Part shown: positions 4,988 to 50,534 of the stretch, one piece after another
How the letters are laid out: every line of letters begins with the position of its first letter
Numbering within the stretch: the stretch's first letter is position 1
Assembly: GCA_017542245.1 (NCBI GenBank)
Contig: JAFXXN010000053.1
Location: 16,107 to 80,106 of the forward strand
Source of the DNA: Lachnospiraceae bacterium
GTDB taxonomy: Bacteria; Bacillota; Clostridia; Lachnospirales; Lachnospiraceae
Direction: 5' to 3'
DNA: 64,000 nt
The notes under the pieces: generated by a model
The model's database searches: none
Told to the model about the DNA's origin: nothing
Seen by the model: only the letters and a program-made list of their open reading frames with translations
Translations under genes and position numbers: made by a program

Positions 4988-5206
4988 AAAGGCGATATAA
5001 AAATCGCCTTTAATATTCCGTGAAACACCCAAAGTGCCGCTTCCCTCTTTCTGAGTCCTAGCAAATGCTAGGTGGGTGACCTCACTTAGACCGCTGTCTT
5101 CCACTCAACGGAGGCCTGACATTAACCTAAAAATGTTGGAATCCCTTATTATGAATGTAGGTTCAAAAATACAGGATCACGCACACCTCAGGATGTTTCT
5201 TGTTAT
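4988..5206 (-). ncRNA. ssrS: Free-standing small RNA, probable 6S RNA
   Basis: A consensus promoter (5213-5241) would start RNA near 5206. A Rho-independent terminator (AAAGGCGAT/ATCGCCTTT, 4988-5011, plus a T-run) ends it. No convincing ORF lies between. The 5' segment GAAACAUCC pairs perfectly with the 3' segment GGGUGUUUC, and GAGGUG pairs with CACUUU, giving a long closing stem around a largely open middle. Inside are an AACCUA/UAGGUU hairpin and a perfect CCUAGCA/UGCUAGG hairpin after ACCCACCU. About 180 nt with a long closing stem and internal bubble fits 6S RNA, which binds the RNA polymerase holoenzyme. Family assignment is from architecture and memory, not a covariance search. Confidence 0.62.
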
Positions 5207-12482: not shown

Positions 12483-14501
12483 TTATGTCTCATTCAGCTT
12501 CCGTCTTATCTCCATCAAACGGTCTCTGAGCTCGGCCGCTTTTTCAAATTCAAGCTCAGCTGCAGCCTTCTGCATATCCTTCATCAGTTTTGCCGCTGCT
12601 GCTTCAAGTTCCTGAACGCTCATCGATTCAGGATCTTTTTCTATTCCCGCATGAGCCTTGTCAACTTTTCTTGTAATACTTATAAGTTCCCTTACTTTTT
12701 TTACTATAGTCTTCGGTGTTATACCGTTTTTATCATTATAATCCTGCTGTATCTTTCTTCGCCTTTCAGTCTCACCTATAGCTTTTTCCATCGATTCGGT
12801 CATATGATCGGCGTACATTACAACATGCCCGTGTTCATTACGTGCAGCCCGTCCTATAGTCTGAATAAGCGATACCTCTGATCGCAGAAATCCTTCCTTA
12901 TCGGCATCTAGGATTGCAACCAGGCTTACCTCAGGAATATCAAGCCCCTCCCTTAAAAGGTTAATGCCTACCAATACGTCAAAGACATCCATTCTCATAT
13001 CTCTGATAATCTGTGAACGTTCAAGTGTGTCCACATCCGAATGCAGATATTTTACCCTTATTCCCGCAGTTCTCAGATATTCTGTCAATTCCTCTGCCAT
13101 TCTTTTCGTAAGCGTAGTTACAAGTACCTTTCCTGCTATAGGTTTTTCCCCGTTCTCATCCGGTACCTGAGCTGCTTTTATTTCTTTTCTTATTTCCTCT
13201 ATAAGATCATCTATCTGACCTTCGGCAGGCCTTACGTCTACTTTCGGGTCCAAAAGCCCTGTCGGACGTATAACCTGTTCAGCTCTCAGCAGCTCATGCT
13301 CTTCCTCATACTGCCCCGGAGTTGCCGAAACAAACATAACCTGATCCAGCATCGATTCAAACTCGTCGAACTTAAGCGGTCTGTTATCAAGTGCCGAAGG
13401 CAGTCTGAATCCATAGTCGACAAGAACGGTCTTTCTGGCACGATCACCGTTAAACATACCTCTGAACTGCGGCATAGTCATATGGGACTCATCGACGATC
13501 ATAAGGAAATCATCTCCGAAATGTTCAATAAGCGTATGAGGGGTTGCTCCTTCCGGAAGGCCCGCAAGATGTCTGGAATAATTCTCTATTCCCGAACAAA
13601 TACCCGTTTCTCTCAGCATCTCAATATCAAAATTTGTCCGCTCGCTGATTCTCTGTGCCTCTATGAGTTTTTCTCTTTCTTTAAAATATTTTACTCTGTC
13701 CTCTAATTCAGCCTCAATTGCGGTTATCGCCTTTTTCATTCTGTCTTCCGGAACAACATAATGTGATGCAGGGAATAGCATAACATGTTCCATGAGCGCC
13801 CTTACTTTCCCTGTCAGCGCTTCCGTCTGGCTTATCTTGTCTATTTCATCCCCGAAAAACTCGACTCTGTAAGCATAATCTTCAGAAGCTATCGGATATA
13901 TTTCCACCACATCACCGCGAACCCTGAATGTACCTCTGTGAAAATCAATCTCATCACGGATATACTGCATATCAACGAGCCGTCTGATCACCTTATCCCT
14001 GTCAACCGTCATTCCCGGTCTCAAAGAAAGAGTCATCTCCGTATAGTCCTCTTGTGCAGCTATGCCATAAATGCAGGATACACTTGCTACTATAATAACA
14101 TCTCTTCTCTCTGCAAGAGCCGCCGTTGCTGAATGTCGCAAACGGTCTATCTCATCATTGATCGCGGAATCCTTCTCAATATATGTATCAGTAGACGGTA
14201 CATAAGCTTCCGGCTGATAATAATCATAATACGACACAAAATACTCTACGGCATTCTCGGGAAAAAATTCTTTAAACTCTCCGTACAACTGAGCAGCCAA
14301 TGTCTTATTATGTGCAATAACTATAGTCGGTTTATTCAGAGCGGCAATAACATTGGCCATTGTAAATGTCTTGCCGGAACCCGTAACTCCCAAAAGTGTT
14401 TCGAACTGATTTCCGGCTTTAAATCCCTCAACCAGTTCTTTTATTGCTTCGGGCTGATCTCCCGTTGGTTTAAAATCGCTGTGTAACACAAAATGGTCCA
14501 T
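12483..14501 (-). CDS. uvrB: Excinuclease ABC subunit B
   Basis: About 672 residues. Walker [14 protein letters not shown] near residue 38, the beta-hairpin region [21 protein letters not shown], helicase motif GRAARN, and the C-terminal UvrC-binding UVR domain ([14 protein letters not shown]). UvrB verifies damage and recruits UvrC. The second ATG (14501) is favoured over 14504 because it gives 5-nt spacing from GGAG. Promoter at 14542-14569. Confidence 0.98.
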
Positions 14502-29309: not shown

Positions 29310-29600
29310 TTAGGTATCCTCTTTAAGCCTTGCTTTATGATGGGGATTTTTCCTTACTATTTCTGCTCCGGCAGCAAGTTCGGTTAAAATAGCAGCACCA
29401 TATGTCACACTTATGGAATCTACCTTCGATAAAAGTTCACCCTGTTCGGTTGAAACATATTTGGGTTTCAATCTGTTTAATGCATAACATAATATATCTG
29501 TCTTACATATATCACAAGTACAGCAGTTCAGTTCAGGTAACAACTGCTCTAACTTATCTTCGACCATATTTTCCATTATGTTTCTAACCAAAACAGCCAT
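29310..29600 (-). CDS. comFB: Late competence protein ComFB-like
   Basis: 96 residues from the ATG at 29600 (GGAGGTG site). VRNIMENMVEDKLEQLLPEL is followed by CCTCDICKTDILCYALNRLKPKYV, the ComFB signature with its cysteines. ComFB-like proteins bind cyclic dinucleotides in cyanobacteria and are of unclear role in Firmicutes; comFA and comFC are not present here. Confidence 0.85.
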   Translation of the reverse strand: MAVLVRNIMENMVEDKLEQLLPELNCCTCDICKTDILCYALNRLKPKYVSTEQGELLSKVDSISVTYGAAILTELAAGAEIVRKNPHHKARLKEDT

Positions 29601-29680
29601 TCCGTTCACCTCCGACATATGACCTGTCCAACCAGTTTCATTTTACATTTGCCCGCACTTATTGTCAAGAAATTTATCAA

Positions 29681-29715
29681 AAGAAAACTCTCTTTACCGT
29701 TTTCGATAAAGAGAG
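29681..29715 (-). terminator. Terminator of the nitrogenase-like/ABC operon
   Basis: On the minus strand CTCTCTTTATCG pairs with CGGTAAAGAGAG around AAAA, followed by TTTTCTTTT. It lies 30 nt after the stop of the substrate-binding lipoprotein gene. Confidence 0.85.
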
Positions 29716-29744
29716 TACAATTTGTAAAACAATCTGTTTTCTAT

Positions 29745-30935
29745 TTATTTTCCGTTACCGGCAAAACCTGTACCGGCTGCCGCAACAGGTGAAAAAATCT
29801 TATCCGCCTGTTCCTTCGTAAGCGTTATACCAAATACTTCTTTATAGTAATTAATTGTTTCTTCCGTAATGTCAACATCATCAAAGAGTGCCGGATATGC
29901 GGTTTTTGCCAACCACAGCAGTGTTACAGGAGTATCAACTCCGCAAGTATAACTCCTGTACATCCCAAGAGGCATTTTATATACCTGTTTGTTCTTTATT
30001 GCATCAATTTCATTCCAGTTATAATTTCCGACTGTATTATTATACAGATCATCAGGAGTAGCCGTATTAAAGTTAGTGATAAATATCATTTCGGGATTCC
30101 ATGAATAAATCTGTTCCATATTCACCGCAACCGAATTATCATTTTCAAGTTCTTCTGCGGCATTTATCGCTCCGATAGCATCACACCACCACTGTCCGAA
30201 AAATTTTTTTCCGCTTGTCATAATATTTGAATCAGAATACTGGAACAGGAAAAATGCCTTAACCTTTTTTTCATCAGGCATTCCGCTGACTTTATCCTGC
30301 ACCCGCTTATACGTCTTTTCAGAGTATTCTCTTACAATAGCCGACTTATTATTATCAGGGAAAAGCTGAACCAGTGTTTCAATCCACTGATTTAATGTTT
30401 CAATTGCATCATAACCCCATTTCCCGGGAGAAATTGCTATGGCGGGTATTCCTGCATTTTTATATACTTCTCCCTCTTCTTTACTTCCTGCACTGTAGAA
30501 TACCACATCCGGATCCAGTTTCATGAGTTCTTCTACATTTACATTTGTGCCGTCAATAAAATCTGTTTTTGCATTTAATATTTCAGGATATAATTCACCT
30601 AAAAGTCCATTCTTTGCCGCACTCATACAGGGAGGTGCCATTCCTACAATCTTTTCTGCCGAATCAAAAAATACGGTAAGCACCGATGCCATAGGGTAAA
30701 TATCTGCCACAACAATTCTCTTTATATCATTTGGAACTTCAACCTGATTTCCCGCATGATCCGTGACAATGTGTTTTCCCTCTGAAGCCGTCTGTTTGTT
30801 ATCACCGTTTCCTTCATTTCTGGAATCATTATTTCCCGTGCCTCCGTTACCGGTATTTCCTGAATTCCCCGAACTGCATGCAGCAAGTCCCAGTATAAGA
30901 ACTGCGCTTAACAATAATGCCACTAACTTCTTCAT
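29745..30935 (-). CDS. Metal-chelate-type ABC substrate-binding lipoprotein
   Basis: 396 residues. Lipoprotein signal peptide MKKLVALLLSAVLILGLAAC with lipobox LAAC and a Gly/Asn/Ser linker. A class III periplasmic-binding (Fe3+-siderophore/cobalamin) fold follows: ITDHAGNQVEVPNDIKRIVV, VEELMKLDPDVVFY and IYSWNPEMIFI are typical. It would capture a metal chelate, corrinoid or haem-like ligand outside the membrane for the FecCD permease encoded upstream in the same operon. It is the last gene, separated from the rest of the transporter by the nitrogenase-like genes. Confidence 0.9.
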   Translation of the reverse strand: MKKLVALLLSAVLILGLAACSSGNSGNTGNGGTGNNDSRNEGNGDNKQTASEGKHIVTDHAGNQVEVPNDIKRIVVADIYPMASVLTVFFDSAEKIVGMAPPCMSAAKNGLLGELYPEILNAKTDFIDGTNVNVEELMKLDPDVVFYSAGSKEEGEVYKNAGIPAIAISPGKWGYDAIETLNQWIETLVQLFPDNNKSAIVREYSEKTYKRVQDKVSGMPDEKKVKAFFLFQYSDSNIMTSGKKFFGQWWCDAIGAINAAEELENDNSVAVNMEQIYSWNPEMIFITNFNTATPDDLYNNTVGNYNWNEIDAIKNKQVYKMPLGMYRSYTCGVDTPVTLLWLAKTAYPALFDDVDITEETINYYKEVFGITLTKEQADKIFSPVAAAGTGFAGNGK

Positions 30936-30985
30936 TTAAAAATCACCTCTTGATTATTTATTTCAGATACACTAATGTATCATGA

Positions 30986-32236
30986 TCACAAAACAATTAT
31001 AGAAACATCTTTTATCAGATCAGGAATGTCATTTCTGAATAATCTCCCGGAAAAAGCTTCATGCGGAACCGGGATAAATTTTAGTTCTTTATTATCATAT
31101 GTCTTCTTACATATGGGTTTAAACAGCGGATCTGCGATAACAGCTTTTAAATTTTCTCCTGACATGATAATTTCTTTTATATCATCCTCACATATATCCG
31201 TAGCCGTAAGAGCCACAGTACAATACTCCGTCTTCATGTTTATATATGCTGCAAGTGACTTGGAACTTACTCCCTCTCCGATTACAATAACATCTGCGTT
31301 CTTCATTTCTCTGCAGATATCATCCTTTTGTTCAAGGCTGAGATTTCTCACTTTTTTATCTGTATCATATCTTTTTTTATAAAAAATCGTTATAATATTC
31401 TCTTCATTAACATCTTCGCTGTAGCACTTTTCCAGGCTGATATCCTCCCCGCCTATCGGGATTCCGATCTTATACGGTGTTCCGAACATACTTTTCAGTC
31501 TATATGCCACCTTTAGTCCGCTTTCCGAAACCACATAATTCAGATGCGCCGTTCCGGCCTTTTCAATATCCGTAAGTCTGCTCCCCATAGCCCACGATGA
31601 AATGATTTCAATTCCTTGTTTGCCCAGCCATTCCCTTATTGAATCAACACTCCCGTTAACAGAAAAATCCAGCGGTGTCAATCCTAAAATATTAGCTGTC
31701 GTTTTTTCTGATTTTTTTAAATCTTTTTTTACTACCCTTTCAGCTAGTCTTAAAAACGCTTCTTCGGCTCCATGAATATATGATCTCATACCGGTTGTCC
31801 CAAATCCGAATGCCGGAATCCCCGTTTCTGATTCAATTATATTAACAGCAGCATTCACATCAAAGCCGGTCATTGCAGGGATCGTAGTTCCGACTATGGC
31901 AATAAAAGCCGGTCTTAATTCCCGAGCCGTTTCGATAACATCAGATATCAGCTTCCCGTCATCTCCCATAATTGCTTCTATTTCAGTTAAACCTGATATA
32001 TAAACCATACCGTCGGTATCATACCATCTGGGTTCATCGTGTGTTGTATATGTAGAATTACATCCGGATGCATCATGCATGACTATCATTCCGCCAAGTT
32101 CAAATAAAGCAGAGCATACGCCGAATGAATCCGCCGAATATGTTGAAATAAAACCTGATGTCTGTTTCAAGTCACTTCTCCTTTTCAAATTCAAGTTAAG
32201 AACTTCGGGGGTAAAGCTACTATTTTCACCCTTCAC
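30986..32236 (-). CDS. Nitrogenase component 1-like protein (NifD/NifK superfamily), subunit B
   Basis: 416 residues. The fold signature is near the N-terminus: TYSADSFGVCSALFELGGM then MHDASGCNSTYTTHDEP, the superfamily segment that supplies P-cluster or [4Fe-4S] ligands. Cys41 and Cys59 are candidate ligands; the third cysteine of true NifD is absent (ELRPAFIAIVGTTI where NifD has a Cys). It lacks the FeMo-cofactor Cys/His region of NifD. The start overlaps the end of the preceding component 1 gene by 11 nt. It is probably half of a heterodimeric reductase fed by the NifH-like protein. Substrate unknown. Confidence 0.82.
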   Translation of the reverse strand: MKGENSSFTPEVLNLNLKRRSDLKQTSGFISTYSADSFGVCSALFELGGMIVMHDASGCNSTYTTHDEPRWYDTDGMVYISGLTEIEAIMGDDGKLISDVIETARELRPAFIAIVGTTIPAMTGFDVNAAVNIIESETGIPAFGFGTTGMRSYIHGAEEAFLRLAERVVKKDLKKSEKTTANILGLTPLDFSVNGSVDSIREWLGKQGIEIISSWAMGSRLTDIEKAGTAHLNYVVSESGLKVAYRLKSMFGTPYKIGIPIGGEDISLEKCYSEDVNEENIITIFYKKRYDTDKKVRNLSLEQKDDICREMKNADVIVIGEGVSSKSLAAYINMKTEYCTVALTATDICEDDIKEIIMSGENLKAVIADPLFKPICKKTYDNKELKFIPVPHEAFSGRLFRNDIPDLIKDVSIIVL

Positions 32237-33602
32237 CGCAACATCCGCAGCCCATACCCTTTATCTGGACCAGACCACGCATATCCTTTTTATTTGCGAC
32301 GGCATCTCTCATAAGTTCCAGGGTGTCGATTATAGCTTCAAATCCAAACATTCCGCCACCTTCAACTACATTTACAAAATAATCGGTATTAAGAAAATAT
32401 GCTGCTTTCTGCCCTAATGCAAGCCATTTTTCTCCGGATTTTTTTTCTCCGGAAGCCATAAATCTTGATTTTACATTAACCGTAGCATAAATCATAAGAT
32501 CAGGATAATTTTCTTTCAGATAAACATAATCCGCCTTTTCCTCATCTATGAACCCGTCAAGATAAAGTCTCTTCACATTAAAGCCATGTTCAAGTAAAGC
32601 TTTTGCAACCGATGTCGGTCTTTGACAAAATGTATAATCTATGGCTATAGGTATATCCCTTGTAATTTCCAAAGTTTTTCCAAATTCTTCCTCGCACAGA
32701 GCAATCTTTTTTTCATAATCAGTTTCGGAAATAATACCATTGCTCACACTGTCTTCAAGACTGTAAAGTGTTTCTTCCAAAAGATTAAGCATCCCGGTTA
32801 TCTCATTGTAATCCCAACTGTATGTCAGATAGAGATGTTTTCCTCCAAGCCTTTTCTCAAGTTCCTTTCCTCCGGCTTTTGCTGCAGGATAATAACTGAT
32901 ATAAAGACTGCTTTCGGCCATTTCCTGATACTCGTTATAAGATCTGCATGAAGTTATTTCATGTATCTTCATCCCGTGCCCTTTAAGAATTCCTATAATC
33001 TCCGAGCCTTCTGAAGTTGGCAGATCATTGCCTATTATAGCCACCGCTTTTTTATTTATCTCTCTCGGCTTCAAGAGTGCATAGAGCTGACGGCGCATTG
33101 TCTGATCGGGTGTAAGGCCGCTTTTCCTTAATGTAGGGTTCATATAGCAATCAACAAAATCTATATCAGGGAATCTATCCCTTAAAGAATCAAACATAAC
33201 TCTCCAGTCACACCCGGTAAAATGATGGACACAGCTGGTATATACCAGTATTGCAGGCGGTTTTTCAGGCAATTTGCCAATTATATCGCTTACCCCTTCT
33301 ATCAGCAGTTCTTCCAGATTTCCTTCCAAAAGATTATTCTCTTTTATCTCAACAGTTGAAAATCTGTCCATGGCGTTCATTTCTGCTGCAGTGAGTACTA
33401 CTCCTCTTAAACAGCTTGCCGCACAAACAAATATCTCATGTGCTTCCGGAATAAGCATACCTGTGTGTACAATATTCCATGTTCCCCTTGCAGGTGATGC
33501 ATATTCAAGGCCGCTTTTAAAAGGGCTCGGGAATTCCGAATCGCCTATTCTTATAACCGCACCATTCTCTGTTATTTCCCTTTCTCCTACTTTTTTAAGC
33601 AT
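32226..33602 (-). CDS. Nitrogenase component 1-like protein (NifD/NifK superfamily), subunit A
   Basis: 458 residues. Candidate cluster ligands are Cys60 and Cys64 (FVCAASCLRG) and Cys124 and Cys131 (YTSCVHHFTGCDW), spaced as in the three-Cys set of NifD/NifK, BchN/BchB and CfbD. The C-terminus ends in an unusual Cys-rich GMGCGCCGEG (449-458). No homocitrate/FeMo-co site is recognisable, so it is unlikely to be a true nitrogenase. It overlaps the next gene and follows the NifH-like gene after about 95 nt. AGGTGAG precedes the ATG. Confidence 0.82.
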   Translation of the reverse strand: MLKKVGEREITENGAVIRIGDSEFPSPFKSGLEYASPARGTWNIVHTGMLIPEAHEIFVCAASCLRGVVLTAAEMNAMDRFSTVEIKENNLLEGNLEELLIEGVSDIIGKLPEKPPAILVYTSCVHHFTGCDWRVMFDSLRDRFPDIDFVDCYMNPTLRKSGLTPDQTMRRQLYALLKPREINKKAVAIIGNDLPTSEGSEIIGILKGHGMKIHEITSCRSYNEYQEMAESSLYISYYPAAKAGGKELEKRLGGKHLYLTYSWDYNEITGMLNLLEETLYSLEDSVSNGIISETDYEKKIALCEEEFGKTLEITRDIPIAIDYTFCQRPTSVAKALLEHGFNVKRLYLDGFIDEEKADYVYLKENYPDLMIYATVNVKSRFMASGEKKSGEKWLALGQKAAYFLNTDYFVNVVEGGGMFGFEAIIDTLELMRDAVANKKDMRGLVQIKGMGCGCCGEG

Positions 33603-33696
33603 ATCTCACCTGCCAGATAACGGCTTTCCTTTCTCTTTAATCCGTTTTTTCCAAATAACTCTTTTTTAAGTAAAATAAATATCAAAAAACAAATAT

Positions 33697-34443
33697 TCAA
33701 TAATTGATAAGCTTCTCCGCCAATCTCCTATACTCTTCAGCCATATCACTGTCCGGAAATGCTTCAATAACTGTCTTTCCCAGTTCTTCTGCATCCTGGA
33801 CTATTTCACTGTGTGTCAGTTCTCCTATTACGGATGTGTTAAAATCAGAAGCCAGTTCCTCAACCTTTGCGTTTTCATTTTTTACATCTCTGTGATTTAA
33901 TATGATACCGCCTAATGAAGCATATCCCCTTGAACGGAAATTATCTATGGCCATAGCAATGTTAGCGGCAGCATGTATTGCCATATTTTCTCCCGATGTT
34001 ATTATATATACCCTGTCGGCATATCCTGCATGCATCGGCATTGAAAATCCACCGCACACCACATCTCCAAGCACATCATAAAGAACAATATCCGGTTTAT
34101 AAATCTCATAAGCTCCTTTTTCTTTTAGCTTATCCAGTGCTGCAATAATGCCTCGCCCTGCACAGCCGACTCCGGGAGTAGGTCCTCCCGCTTCTACACA
34201 TAAAACCCCCGCAGTTCCTTCTACAACCATATCTTTATATTCAAAAGCATTCTTCTTTTCTCTTATAAGATCAAGCACAGTTGTGATTTTTTTATCTTTT
34301 CTGAGGCTGAGTGTAGAATCTGCTTTAGGATCGCACCCGATCTGCATAACTTTAAACCCTTTTTCGCTCAAAGACACTGCTATATTTGAAACTGTTGTTG
34401 ATTTTCCTATTCCGCCTTTTCCGTATATAGCTATTTTTTTCAT
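33697..34443 (-). CDS. NifH-like Fe protein (nitrogenase reductase superfamily)
   Basis: 248 residues. P-loop GKGGIGKS (8-15), the switch II region DVLGDVVCGGF, and both cluster-bridging cysteines Cys94 (GVGCAGRG) and Cys130 (DVVCGG). It should form a homodimer with one [4Fe-4S] cluster and deliver electrons one at a time with ATP hydrolysis. At 248 residues it is shorter than NifH (about 290), like other non-nitrogen-fixing members. It is encoded between the ABC ATPase and two component 1 genes, so the partner complex is clear even though the substrate is not. Confidence 0.9.
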   Translation of the reverse strand: MKKIAIYGKGGIGKSTTVSNIAVSLSEKGFKVMQIGCDPKADSTLSLRKDKKITTVLDLIREKKNAFEYKDMVVEGTAGVLCVEAGGPTPGVGCAGRGIIAALDKLKEKGAYEIYKPDIVLYDVLGDVVCGGFSMPMHAGYADRVYIITSGENMAIHAAANIAMAIDNFRSRGYASLGGIILNHRDVKNENAKVEELASDFNTSVIGELTHSEIVQDAEELGKTVIEAFPDSDMAEEYRRLAEKLINY

Positions 34444-34487
34444 ATTTTTTCCTCGTCTTTTCCTGTTTCTCTAAGTAACTTCTTCTT

Positions 34488-35285
34488 TTATTTTCTGGTT
34501 ACATATATCGGAACAATGTTTTTTATTACCTCACCGTCCACCTGCATTTCATTTATTATTGCTTTTACTCCAAAAAAGTTTTCTATATTTTCCTCATTTA
34601 CGACATCTCCGGTCCTCCCAAAAACCGGTAATCTTCCACCTAATAAAAGCGAACAGTCGGCTTTCTGCAGAGCATGCTTGGGATAGTGGGTATTAAAAAT
34701 ACAGCTGATCCCTTTTTTCTTTAATTTATCAAAAGTATTAAGTACTATAAGCTGATTTCTGAAATCAAGACCGGATTCAGGTTCATCAAGAATAAGAAGT
34801 TTTGGATTTGATACAAGAGCCTTTGCAATCAAAACCATCTGAAATTCTCCGCCGCTTAAAGAACTGCATGTCCTGTTTTTCAAGGCCGATATACCCAGTT
34901 CTTCCATTATGTTTTCTGCGGCCTCCAAATCTGTTTTTTTAGGTACCCCGAAAAAGGATACCTGTCCGCTTCTTCCTAAAAGAACATTTTCAAATGCAGT
35001 ATACCCCGTAGCTGCCATACGTTGTTGAGGCACGTAACTCACCTTTTCCCAAAATTCCTTAAAACTAAGGGTATTTGTATCCCTTTCATCAAAAAAACTC
35101 TTGCCGCCGGTCCATTTCAGCATTCCCATAAGGCATCTTAAGAAAGTGGTTTTTCCGCTTCCGTTTGGCCCGAGGATTGCCATTATCTGTCCGCTCTCAA
35201 GGGAAATATTTACTTTATCGAATAATAGGTCTGCTTTTTCATTTTTGTCATAAGAAAATGAAACATTCTCTGTTCTCAATTTCAT
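34488..35285 (-). CDS. Metal-chelate/cobalamin-type ABC ATPase (FecE/BtuD family)
   Basis: 265 residues. Walker A GPNGSGKTTFLR, Q-loop YVPQQR, signature LSGGEFQM, Walker B LLILDEPESGLD and H-loop FNTHYPKHAL. The YVPQ motif and length place it with iron-siderophore, haem and cobalamin importers. The signature SGGEFQM and H-loop NTHYP deviate slightly from consensus. It is encoded directly after the FecCD permease and before the NifH-like gene. Confidence 0.92.
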   Translation of the reverse strand: MKLRTENVSFSYDKNEKADLLFDKVNISLESGQIMAILGPNGSGKTTFLRCLMGMLKWTGGKSFFDERDTNTLSFKEFWEKVSYVPQQRMAATGYTAFENVLLGRSGQVSFFGVPKKTDLEAAENIMEELGISALKNRTCSSLSGGEFQMVLIAKALVSNPKLLILDEPESGLDFRNQLIVLNTFDKLKKKGISCIFNTHYPKHALQKADCSLLLGGRLPVFGRTGDVVNEENIENFFGVKAIINEMQVDGEVIKNIVPIYVTRK

Positions 35286-35336
35286 CAGCTTTATCTTCTC
35301 CTAAAAATTCTGCTATATAGAAGGCTTATACCTAAC

Positions 35337-36314
35337 TTATAACTTTTTTCTGGATGTAAGTATTAATATAAAGAATGGTGCACCGATTATGGCAGTAAGT
35401 ATGGATACCGGAATTTCTGAAGCACTTACAGATCTGGCAACTGTGTCAACCATCACCATAAAAGCAGCTCCTATACAGATTGAAGCAGGTATCAGTTTTC
35501 GTCCATCCTGCCCCCAGATCATCCTGCACATATGAGGCACAATCAATCCTACCCAGCCTACCTGTCCACACATTGAGATTACTGAGCTTGTCATAGCTGT
35601 AGCACAAATGACTACCAGGGTTCTTAAAAGCTTTACATTGGTTCCGGATGCGATAAGCTCATCTTCGGAAAGAGAAAGCAGATTCAGTCTCCATCTTAAA
35701 AGAAATATTATTATAACGCTAACAATAATTACAGGTGCCCCTATCACGAGATTTTTATATCCCGCACTGCCAAGGCTTCCCATAAGCCAGTAAGTTATTG
35801 CCGGAAGCTGTGATTCGGCATCTGCCAAAAATTTTACAAGCGAAACGAGCGCCGAAAAAAGCGATCCTACCATAATCCCGGATATTATAAGGACTGCAGG
35901 ACCATGTCCTCTTCCCGAAGCCGTTAATCTGGTGATAACAACAGCGGCTATACCCATACACAGTGACAATATCTGAACACCTATCATATTAAAACCAAGA
36001 AGTAATCCAAGCGCTGCGCCAAAGCTTGCTCCTCCTGCAACTCCCATAGTATCCGGTGTTGCAAGCGGATTCGAAAAGAATCCCTGGAAACTGCATCCGG
36101 CTACAGATAACCCGGCTCCGCATAAAAGTCCTAAAAGTATTCTTGGAAGCCTGATATTCTGTATGGTTATTTTAACGCTTCCGCTGATATCCTGCGAACC
36201 GGTAAGTGCTTTCAGAACATCTAAAGGACTTATTGAATTTCTTCCTATGCAGAGACATACAAGCGCTGTAATGATAGGAAATATTATTAAAATAATTATA
36301 GTCCGTTTTTTCAC
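35337..36314 (-). CDS. FecCD-type ABC permease
   Basis: 325 residues with 9-10 hydrophobic segments. FecCD family marks include IRLPRILLGLLCGAGLSVAG, NPLATPDTMGVAGGASFGAA, GQVGWVGLIVPHMCRM and the C-terminal GAPFFILILTSRK. It would form the membrane dimer of a BtuCD-like importer for an iron, haem, corrinoid or other metal-chelate ligand. It follows the TM1266-type regulator gene by 39 nt and precedes the ATPase gene. Confidence 0.93.
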   Translation of the reverse strand: MKKRTIIILIIFPIITALVCLCIGRNSISPLDVLKALTGSQDISGSVKITIQNIRLPRILLGLLCGAGLSVAGCSFQGFFSNPLATPDTMGVAGGASFGAALGLLLGFNMIGVQILSLCMGIAAVVITRLTASGRGHGPAVLIISGIMVGSLFSALVSLVKFLADAESQLPAITYWLMGSLGSAGYKNLVIGAPVIIVSVIIIFLLRWRLNLLSLSEDELIASGTNVKLLRTLVVICATAMTSSVISMCGQVGWVGLIVPHMCRMIWGQDGRKLIPASICIGAAFMVMVDTVARSVSASEIPVSILTAIIGAPFFILILTSRKKL

Positions 36315-36352
36315 AATTTCCCCGTCCTGTTTTCCCGAGCTGTCATTCCGCT

Positions 36353-36619
36353 CTATATTTCCTCTGACTCAGTGGTTACATTTGAGTAATTTGTTTTGGC
36401 TGAGACACCTTTCAGCTTTCCAATCTTTCCGGTCATACTGTTTATTTCATCTTCAGGGGCATCTATCGCCACACATATAATATTAACATTTTTCTCTCTA
36501 TAGGGCAGTCCCATCCTGCCGATGATCCTCTCCCTAAACTGTGATAAAATCGAATTAAGTTTTTCCACAGAGGAAACGTCCTCAAGTATTATCGATATAA
36601 CTGCAACTCTTTTTTTCAT
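36353..36619 (-). CDS. TM1266-type ACT-like putative regulator (iron-only hydrogenase system regulator family)
   Basis: 88 residues from the ATG at 36619 (AGGAG site 7 nt upstream; the longer frame to 36733 crosses the terminator and is rejected). MKKRVAVISIILEDVSSVEKLN, FRERIIGRMGLPYREKNVNI and GKIGKLKGVSAKTNYSN match the TM1266 family, which adopts an ACT/NikR C-terminal-like fold and is usually found beside [FeFe]-hydrogenase maturation genes. No DNA-binding domain is present, so it may bind a metal or small ligand rather than DNA (inference). First gene of the nitrogenase-like operon. Confidence 0.88.
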   Translation of the reverse strand: MKKRVAVISIILEDVSSVEKLNSILSQFRERIIGRMGLPYREKNVNIICVAIDAPEDEINSMTGKIGKLKGVSAKTNYSNVTTESEEI

Positions 36620-36656
36620 AGTTGGTCTCCTGTTGTTAGATTTTGCACTTTTGACC

Positions 36657-36697
36657 TTAGTATTAAAAAGAGCTGTATCCGTAAAAGGATACAGCTC
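36657..36697 (-). terminator. Terminator/attenuator in the leader of the nitrogenase-like operon
   Basis: On the minus strand AGAGCTGTATCC (36697-36686) pairs perfectly with GGATACAGCTCT (36679-36668) and is followed by TTTTTAATA. It stands downstream of a strong promoter and upstream of the first gene, so it must be bypassed for operon expression. Confidence 0.82.
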
Positions 36698-36714
36698 TGA
36701 TACCTGATTATATA

Positions 36715-36777
36715 TTAAAAAAACCGGTTCCAAAAAGGACAGATTACATATGCTAAAAGAATCCGGGCAGAACTCAT
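36715..36777 (-). CDS. Possible 20-residue leader peptide
   Basis: A short ORF inside the leader: ATG at 36777 with AGGGG 4-5 nt upstream, 20 codons (MSSARILLAYVICPFWNRFF), TAA at 36717-36715, 18 nt before the terminator stem begins. Its position between promoter and terminator is that of an attenuation peptide. It could also be fortuitous, because the ATG lies within a possible AATTCGG/CCGGATT hairpin. Confidence 0.4.
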   Translation of the reverse strand: MSSARILLAYVICPFWNRFF

Positions 36778-36861
36778 CTTTCCCCTATCCGAATTAACAT
36801 CATAATATGTCGTTTATCTTTCACTTCAATTTTGTTACATTTCAGTGTCAGAGCTTGATTT

Positions 36862-36890
36862 ATTATATTATGCCTTTATTACTTTGTCAA
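36862..36890 (-). promoter_or_regulatory. Consensus promoter of the nitrogenase-like operon
   Basis: Minus-strand TTGACA (36890-36885), 17-nt spacer, TATAAT (36867-36862): perfect sigma-A consensus. It gives a leader of about 235 nt before the first gene, holding a small hairpin, the possible leader peptide and the terminator. Confidence 0.88.
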
Positions 36891-50413: not shown

Positions 50414-50436
50414 AAATAGTTCTTACTTAATAAAGC

Positions 50437-50520
50437 CCTCCCTACGTTGGCATTACCCAAATCAGGTTATCGGTCGAAGGCCACACCTTCCTCTCAGCCT
50501 GTGATACAAGCTCCCGCATT
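50437..50520 (-). ncRNA. TPP (THI-box) riboswitch aptamer
   Basis: The minus-strand RNA contains the conserved elements in order: GCGGGAGCUUG, CAGGCUGAGAGG, ACCUGAUUUGGGUAAUGCCA and ACGUAGGGAG. This is the standard TPP-binding aptamer. It controls thiW-thiM-thiE-thiD-methyltransferase-tenA; TPP binding should favour the downstream terminator and shut the operon off. Confidence 0.97.
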
Positions 50521-50534
50521 TATATTTCAAAAGT

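Follow-up and report, generated by a model that had tools for sequence, protein, structure and literature searches.

In the standard route to the H-cluster of [FeFe]-hydrogenases, HydG splits tyrosine, releasing CO and CN−, and supplies HydE with an Fe(CO)2(CN)(Cys) unit, from which HydE and HydF build the diiron site. According to extracts of two papers, every CO and CN− ligand of the H-cluster derives from tyrosine in this route (PMC3105041), and these ligands are made through HydG (PMC11736057). Extracts of a survey of nitrogenase-like sequences (Dos Santos 2012, PMC3464626) report, for Coprococcus catus, two linked NifHEN-like sets of Group IV next to 'hydrogenase maturation proteins', for which a role in metallocluster or active-site assembly was suggested, and Group IV sequences beside ATP-binding cassette (ABC) transporters, for which metal transport coupled to cofactor assembly was suggested. 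Here we analyse a 64,000-nucleotide stretch of a Lachnospiraceae bacterium genome (contig JAFXXN010000053.1, positions 16,107 to 80,106; 'the window'), in which an operon of seven genes encodes a nitrogenase-like reductase, here called NflHDK, of a clade designated Nfl(a). We infer that Nfl(a)HDK probably stands in for HydG in H-cluster assembly, and comparison with related genomes suggests a second, undescribed route to the iron/CO/cyanide core of hydrogenases.

Relatives were gathered by searching for NflD in 397 genomes of the family, which gave 54 positives including the window's genome (G000), and in 371 genomes of the class, which gave 19 besides its own. An NflH search of genome contigs returned 11 loci, ten of which were used. 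The family positives were classed as 41 genomes with Nfl(a), 12 of Nfl(c) type and one other (G262), those with unfetched neighbourhoods being assigned to clade a by an NflD identity of at least 36% (other kinds, at most 31%) and G167 by its K gene. Searches of the family sample at E 1e-60 found HydG in 176 and HydE in 221 of the 397 genomes. All but one of the 41 Nfl(a) genomes had HydE, and among HydE-positive genomes HydG was found in 3/40 with Nfl(a) versus 170/181 without it (Fisher test, 1e-28). With the Nfl clades pooled, the HydE-positive genomes comprised 38 with Nfl and no HydG, 7 with both, 10 with neither and 166 with HydG only; three further genomes had HydG without HydE, and 164 had none of Nfl, HydE and HydG.

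The same pattern was seen in the class sample, where HydG exceeded its cut-off in none of 14 Nfl(a) genomes, versus 4/5 with other Nfl and 41/54 Nfl-negative genomes; matches below the cut-off of 312 bits occurred in two Nfl(a) genomes (G601, 222 bits; G705, 217 bits) and in the Nfl-negative G706 and G526. Four one-contig genomes (G191, G232, G319, G514) are without HydG. Within each of the genera g59, g82 and g104, HydG in one of the listed species contrasts with Nfl(a) in its place in another; of the two listed members of genus g103, one carries HydG and one carries both systems. HydF, looked for in 80 genomes, was found in 9/10 with an importer beside Nfl(a) (type I, below), 5/5 tested with Hyp genes or a second reductase there (type II), 5/5 HydG controls and 4/12 with Nfl(c). 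It was also found in G262, in G245 and in seven of ten exceptional genomes discussed below, and in none of 36 genomes without Nfl, HydE and HydG. HydE and HydF are kept while HydG is missing, and therefore Nfl(a) probably replaces HydG.

Gene neighbourhoods point the same way. They were fetched for part of the positives, and their genes were labelled by BLAST comparison with those of the window and with a reference set, the reference HydE, HydF, HypF/D/E and LarB/C/E genes being confirmed by NCBIfam above cut-off. Trees contained three Nfl clades, a (that of the window), b and c, with NflD(a) forming one clade of 46 sequences (support 0.927; Shimodaira–Hasegawa-like approximate likelihood-ratio support of 100 in a tree with four outgroup rows). 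The comparison comprised 49 Nfl(a) and 20 Nfl(c) loci; L012 (broken NflD frame), L013 (weak archaeal match) and L077 (from G262, of mixed kind) were excluded from both. TM1266 (at least 29 loci), HydE (16) or HydF (22) lies within 11 kb in 38/49 Nfl(a) loci, where the TM1266 count is a lower bound, the open reading frame caller having missed it in L007 and L044. HydE inside the L008 operon and HydF adjoining that of L004 both exceed their equivalog cut-offs. TM1266 also accompanies HydG in 22 of 36 fetched HydG stretches (chosen mostly among the best-scoring matches, not randomly), many in the order TM1266-HydE-HydG(-HydF), and in several loci Nfl genes occupy the HydG slot of this order. Two layouts recur, type I with an importer (16/49) and type II with Nfl(b) and/or Hyp genes (28/49), and no locus has both, with some loci cut short by contig ends; the anti-correlation with HydG holds in genomes of both layouts. 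In two loci other genes are found nearby: LarB/LarC/LarE nickel-pincer genes adjoin NflHDK in L006 (12367-15325, plus strand), and LarB/LarE-like genes were seen by BLAST in L046. L045 carries a TwoAYGGAY RNA past its NflK gene (12731-12895, minus strand).

The window operon is of type I, and its features are as follows.

36862 to 36890, minus strand: sigma-70-type promoter, TTGACA-17-TATAAT, a pattern match only (consensus scan, 12/12)
36810 to 36856, minus strand: leader RNA motif R1, hairpin CUGAYACC-GAAAU...UUGA-GGURAAAG, from a 13-sequence alignment (cmsearch 40.2 bits, not an independent score, the window being among the 13 training sequences)
36669 to 36698, minus strand: intrinsic terminator within the leader, its 5' flank complementary to the leader 5' end (AGCTCTGA/TCAGAGCT)
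36353 to 36619, minus strand: TM1266-like protein, 88 amino acids (TIGR03959, 110.3 bits versus a cut-off of 60.8, hence a member of that family; PF21699)
35337 to 36314, minus strand: FecCD/BtuC-type permease (PF01032, 275 bits)
34488 to 35285, minus strand: ABC ATPase of the FecCD importer (PF00005, ABC_tran; F420-0/FecE-type matches below cut-off)
33697 to 34443, minus strand: NflH(a), NifH/CfbC-like Fe protein (PF00142, Fer4_NifH, 295 bits)
32226 to 33602, minus strand: NflD(a), component-1-like (PF00148, Oxidored_nitro, 42 bits), with invariant C60, C64 and C124 and a C-terminal KGMGCGCC tail
30986 to 32236, minus strand: NflK(a), component-1-like partner of NflD(a) (PF00148, Oxidored_nitro, 87 bits), with invariant C59
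29745 to 30935, minus strand: binding lipoprotein (PF01497, Peripla_BP_2), with conserved Cys20 taken as the lipid-bearing cysteine
29687 to 29716, minus strand: intrinsic terminator closing the operon, a stem of 13 base pairs and then a T run

An earlier note on this DNA had described seven same-strand genes of these families between one consensus promoter and one terminator. Coordinates and the Pfam and NCBIfam matches agree with the gene account, and both signals are present; the leader RNA and the terminator within the leader had been overlooked. Promoter-like sites in the scanned region are no more frequent than in shuffled sequence (31 versus 33.3, s.d. 6.7), and the operon promoter is the sole 12/12 site. 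The leader (∼235 nucleotides) lies ahead of the first gene and folds better than shuffles (z = −2.56; 1/200 as good). No radical S-adenosylmethionine (SAM) gene is found among the seven, and a search of the genome at E 0.001 gave no PF00148 match other than NflD(a) and NflK(a). Elsewhere in G000 there are HydE, HydF and a hydrogenase with the H-cluster motifs TSCSPGW, MPCTAKKFE and EIMACPGGCVNGGG, but no HydG, HypC or HypD match; at 1e-60 HydG (TIGR03955) was found neither in G000 nor in G134. A hydrogenase in L081 likewise retains standard H-cluster motifs. Directly after the operon lies a ComFB-like gene (29310-29618, minus strand) with its own promoter-like site, in the same order as in L003 and L004, and elsewhere in the window are a 6S RNA (5022-5197, minus strand) and a thiamine pyrophosphate riboswitch (50420-50527, minus strand).

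The Nfl proteins were placed by NCBIfam hidden Markov model scores and by fold search, the trees being of Nfl sequences. PF00142 and PF00148 above cut-off and a predicted component-1 fold put them in the nitrogenase superfamily. In line with the earlier note, which had called the set the best candidate for an undescribed system, NflHDK(a) falls below the cut-off for every characterised nitrogenase-like family modelled in NCBIfam (Nif, Cfb, Bch). For NifH and CfbC, NflH(a) attains ∼80% of the cut-off score, and NflD(a) and NflK(a) stay much further below those of their families. NflH(a) scores 317 bits with the NifH model versus a cut-off of 394, and the better of the two component-1 proteins scores 65 versus 505 for NifE, 29 versus 654 for NifD and 16 versus 427 for NifK. 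The proteins are thus also outside CfbCD (CfbC 317 versus 402, CfbD 26 versus 268) and outside dark-operative protochlorophyllide oxidoreductase (DPOR) and chlorophyllide oxidoreductase (COR) (BchL 196 versus 345, BchX 162 versus 331, BchB 43.5 versus 490). Identity of NflD(a) and NflK(a) to solved chains of methylthio-alkane reductase (MAR) is 13–15%. A PDB sequence search did not serve to identify NflD(a), returning only NifE at E 0.36–0.39.

AlphaFold predicts component-1 folds for NflD(a) (predicted local distance difference test score, pLDDT, 87; residues 451–458 of low confidence, as expected of a flexible tail) and NflK(a) (pLDDT 80.5; poor superposition, with a root-mean-square deviation of ∼9 Å or more). 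Among the 50 best Foldseek matches listed, the models had a probability of 1.00 and template modelling scores by query length of 0.49–0.66; nitrogenase, NifEN and MAR were matched by both NflD and NflK and DPOR by NflK only, at 11–17% identity to the solved chains and with no family clearly nearest. In alignment columns C60, C64 and C124 are kept in 46/46 NflD(a) and C59 in 38/38 NflK(a), which would be sufficient for one interface iron–sulfur cluster. A KGxGC-type C-terminal tail is present in 39/46 NflD(a), versus 0/25 NflD(b) and 0/20 NflD(c).

The type II loci bring in the cyanide machinery of [NiFe]-hydrogenases. HypF and HypE use carbamoyl phosphate to charge the C-terminal cysteine of HypE with cyanide, and HypD carries Fe(CN)2CO (PMC4506123, in extract). 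Nfl(a) and HypD occur together in 30 family genomes, all of which have HypC (counted by PF01455, a start-motif expression being too strict, at 7/27). A [NiFe] large-subunit match was found in six of them, which carry a second HypC and HypD; the other 24 gave no match to a [NiFe]-hydrogenase. All 25 HypE proteins compared, 24 from Nfl clusters and one from G011, have PRIC at the C terminus. None of the 10 type I genomes examined gave a match for HypC, HypD or [NiFe]-hydrogenase.

Importer and Hyp module look interchangeable. The label (42 rows) switches at least four times on the NflD(a) tree, two of the switches being forced by strongly supported branches. Because both modules hold the same place beside Nfl(a), in 16 and 28 of 49 loci and never together, the importer may take up the very product of the Hyp module, namely an iron precursor bearing cyanide or carbonyl that other microbes have released, although we regard this as a long shot. 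The nearest PDB sequence to the binding protein is 4ovk (E 3e-41). Sequence comparison left the ligand of the binding protein undecided: the nearest entries were 4ovk (an unnamed protein), HI_1472 and iron and nickel proteins, and none singled out a ligand.

FecCD/Peripla_BP_2 importers mostly carry iron chelates. Nfl(a) and the importer might then serve iron or metal acquisition, co-regulated with the hydrogenase genes because hydrogenases need iron, with the loss of HydG tolerated by other means (free CO and CN−, or another enzyme). The typical use of these importer families speaks for this, as do the Nfl(c)-importer sets found without Hyd genes near, six HydE-positive genomes with neither HydG nor Nfl and no simple excuse, and the ∼1% activation that HydE and HydF gave in vitro without HydG (PMC9431212, in extract). 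We nevertheless consider it unlikely, since the importer was not seen in 33/49 Nfl(a) loci, 28 of which have Hyp or Nfl(b), the anti-correlation with HydG appears in both layouts, and iron supply leaves HypC/D/E/F without a [NiFe]-hydrogenase unexplained.

The earlier note had taken the set to import a metal chelate, corrinoid or tetrapyrrole and reduce it for metal release or sulfur/carbon scavenging, without relation to hydrogenases. In its favour, the importer is co-operonic in the window, NflH scores equally for CfbC and NifH, and the 20 Nfl(c) loci include 16 with a binding protein, none with HydE, HydF or HydG and one with TM1266; the 16 (L009, L011, L064-L070, L072-L074, L148-L151) mostly have FecCD and ATPase genes too and no hyd genes near. 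The proposal may thus be right for Nfl(c). For Nfl(a) it seems very improbable, given the linkage to hyd genes, the anti-correlation with HydG, a leader RNA common to some HydG and HydF-HydE operons, and the fact that no transporter was seen in most Nfl(a) loci. The transporter linkage does recur (16/49 Nfl(a) loci, and the binding protein in 16/20 Nfl(c) loci), but it is not constant, 28/49 Nfl(a) loci having Nfl(b)/Hyp instead. A lack of this linkage in relatives, which the note had named as evidence against itself, was therefore found in part of the neighbourhoods, and the importer gives way as the defining part to TM1266, HydE and HydF as recurrent partners and to the absence of HydG, as does the proposed metal release or scavenging.

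The HydE sequences also speak for the replacement of HydG. A set of 64 HydE proteins was compared, 31 from Nfl-only, 23 from HydG-only, three from both and seven from neither kind of genome (L008 was labelled Nfl-only, its genome being outside the HydG search). The groups are intermingled in one poorly resolved tree, the best version of which implies 11 switches between HydG-only and Nfl-only. With a divergent outgroup row omitted, the 22 HydG-only and 31 Nfl-only proteins have 116 columns conserved to at least 90% in each group, and no column is group-specific. Judged by its sequence, HydE is unchanged between Nfl(a) and HydG genomes. This bears on a further proposal, that the product of Nfl(a), HydE and HydF is not the standard H-cluster but a modified one, or a different organometallic cofactor. 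The different gene neighbours of HydE and HydF, the cysteine tail peculiar to NflD(a) and the addition of Hyp and Nfl(b) in type II would fit such a product. The lack of group-specific HydE columns and the standard H-cluster motifs in the G000 and L081 hydrogenases make it quite unlikely.

The leader RNA provides another link between Nfl(a) and hydrogenase maturation genes. The R1 hairpin is common to 13 leaders, with 52/52 cells paired, 3/4 pairs changing on both sides and a covariation score of 0.587 versus 0.25 when shuffled; no Rfam match at gathering score was found at the leader in the window or in seven related loci searched. Matches of the covariance model outside the training set all had E < 1e-4. 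They lie ahead of TM1266/Nfl(a) genes in L007, of HydF-HydE in L087 and L136, of HydG in L103 (from G224, which has both systems) and of TM1266-HydG in L163 and L164. In a simple scan, R1 was followed by a terminator in L007, L087, L136 and the window, and by a T-poor one in L103; L163 and L164 gave none. By manual reading with no chance control, the segment after the hairpin can pair with the terminator region over 8–12 bases in 7/13 leaders and over 7 in L003 and L075. The pairing is limited to 6 bases in L044, L135 and L138, and in the leader of the window it is the 5' end that pairs with the terminator region instead. This pairing suggests antitermination.

Two loci show importers of another class. 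In L075 (5592-11458, plus strand) an R1 leader and TM1266 are followed by an NMT1-type binding protein, a BPD permease and a divergent NflHDK; its genome, G285, has no HydE, HydF or HydG match. L088 (6479-10575, plus strand) has TM1266, a BPD permease, an ATPase, an NMT1-type binding protein and HydF. Its genome (G181) is HydE-positive and matched neither HydG nor Nfl, and this may be a third arrangement.

Several observations weigh against the replacement of HydG by Nfl(a). Three of the 41 family Nfl(a) genomes have HydG as well (G224, G356, G394), and 11 HydE-positive genomes have neither, namely ten without an NflD match and G048, an Nfl(c) genome. One of the ten (G362) carries a fragment of NflK-HydF where a contig ends, three are 69–86% complete and six have no simple explanation. 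Hydrogenase-like PF02906 genes occur in 45/55 sampled genomes without Nfl, HydE and HydG, and PF02906 was therefore useless as a marker of active hydrogenase. In G241, the one of these genomes looked at for motifs, a hydrogenase has all three H-cluster motifs with no HydE, HydF or HydG match; the hydrogenase-like genes of that genome are

L099, 6741 to 8441, minus strand: hydrogenase-like gene
L100, 8579 to 9949, plus strand: hydrogenase-like gene

Because of these PF02906 genes and the intact motifs in G241, missing genes alone do not prove a substitute. Contamination of the G000 assembly is 8.6%, although G134, a clean genome of the same genus, repeats its pattern of Nfl(a), HydE and HydF without HydG. 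The genomes are not independent; a phylogenetically controlled pairs test on well-supported branches of the HydE tree was not significant and, with only four independent pairs, had no power (Nfl(a) versus HydG, averages of 1.6 opposite, 0.0 the same way and 2.4 with no difference). None of TM1266, HydE and HydF is in view in 11/49 Nfl(a) loci, and R1 precedes just 3/39 HydG loci examined. In 5/49 Nfl(a) loci, neither importer nor Nfl(b)/Hyp module lies alongside; G071, G091 and G741 have Hyp or Nfl(b) on other contigs, and L054 and L092 begin at the edge of a contig. A cyanide source is obvious in type II but cannot be seen in type I genomes. Finally, the type I importer ligand is probably not hydrogenase-specific, since conserved residues of the binding protein are common to 17 Nfl(c)-side proteins (preselected at >40% identity to references) and 8/12 Nfl(c) family genomes are without HydE and HydF.

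A mechanism can be sketched for the replacement of HydG, with the chemistry of Nfl(a) and the imported ligand as its speculative parts. ATP-driven NflH would hand low-potential electrons to an NflD/NflK dimer carrying one iron–sulfur cluster on the conserved cysteines. The dimer might complete an iron–diatomic unit, one conceivable way being the reduction of CO2 to iron-bound CO. Such a reduction is feasible for nitrogenase-like reductases of this sort. The unit would be passed to HydE, perhaps via the NflD(a) cysteine tail. In type II, cyanide could come from carbamoyl phosphate by HypF/HypE onto HypC/HypD, together with the second reductase, Nfl(b); in type I, G000 included, the FecCD importer would supply iron or a ligand precursor.

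If this is correct, nature has a second solution to iron-CO-CN chemistry, and a function is found for an uncharacterised nitrogenase-like clade present in about one-tenth of the family sample (41/397). The maturation of [NiFe]- and [FeFe]-hydrogenases would be joined, with new tools for hydrogenase production, and the role of the remaining Group IV nitrogenase-like enzymes, a long-standing question, would become directly testable. Were a precursor indeed imported, H-cluster building blocks would be salvaged and exchanged in anaerobic communities, like cobamides.

Beyond Dos Santos 2012, a search of openly licensed PMC papers, seen in extract, found no literature on a nitrogenase-like or HydG-less route to the H-cluster. 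The Coprococcus catus Group IV genes of that survey are probably the same as type II, but its extracted text does not mention the absence of HydG, Hyp without [NiFe]-hydrogenase, the swappable importer or the leader RNA. In CfbCD, DPOR/COR (BchLNB, BchXYZ) and the methylthio-alkane and isethionate reductases, as in Nfl(a), a NifH-like protein drives a component-1-like partner, and isethionate reductase, like type I, depends on an ABC importer (PMC11423573, in extract). All of these differ from Nfl(a) in their gene neighbours; Nfl(a) is below the equivalog cut-offs of the Cfb and Bch systems, and CfbCD has one component-1 gene where the window has two. The HypCDEF cyanide machinery of [NiFe]-hydrogenases also occurs in type II clusters, where HypE retains its C-terminal cysteine, but in 24/30 family genomes with Nfl(a) and HypD it has no [NiFe]-hydrogenase match to accompany it. 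HydG within the HydEFG system (TIGR03955, TIGR03956, TIGR03918) resembles Nfl(a) in its partners HydE, HydF and TM1266, in its operon slot, in the hydrogenases of the same genomes and, in 3/39 HydG loci, in the R1 leader. The enzymes themselves are unrelated, HydG being a radical SAM tyrosine lyase and Nfl(a) an ATP-driven nitrogenase-like reductase.

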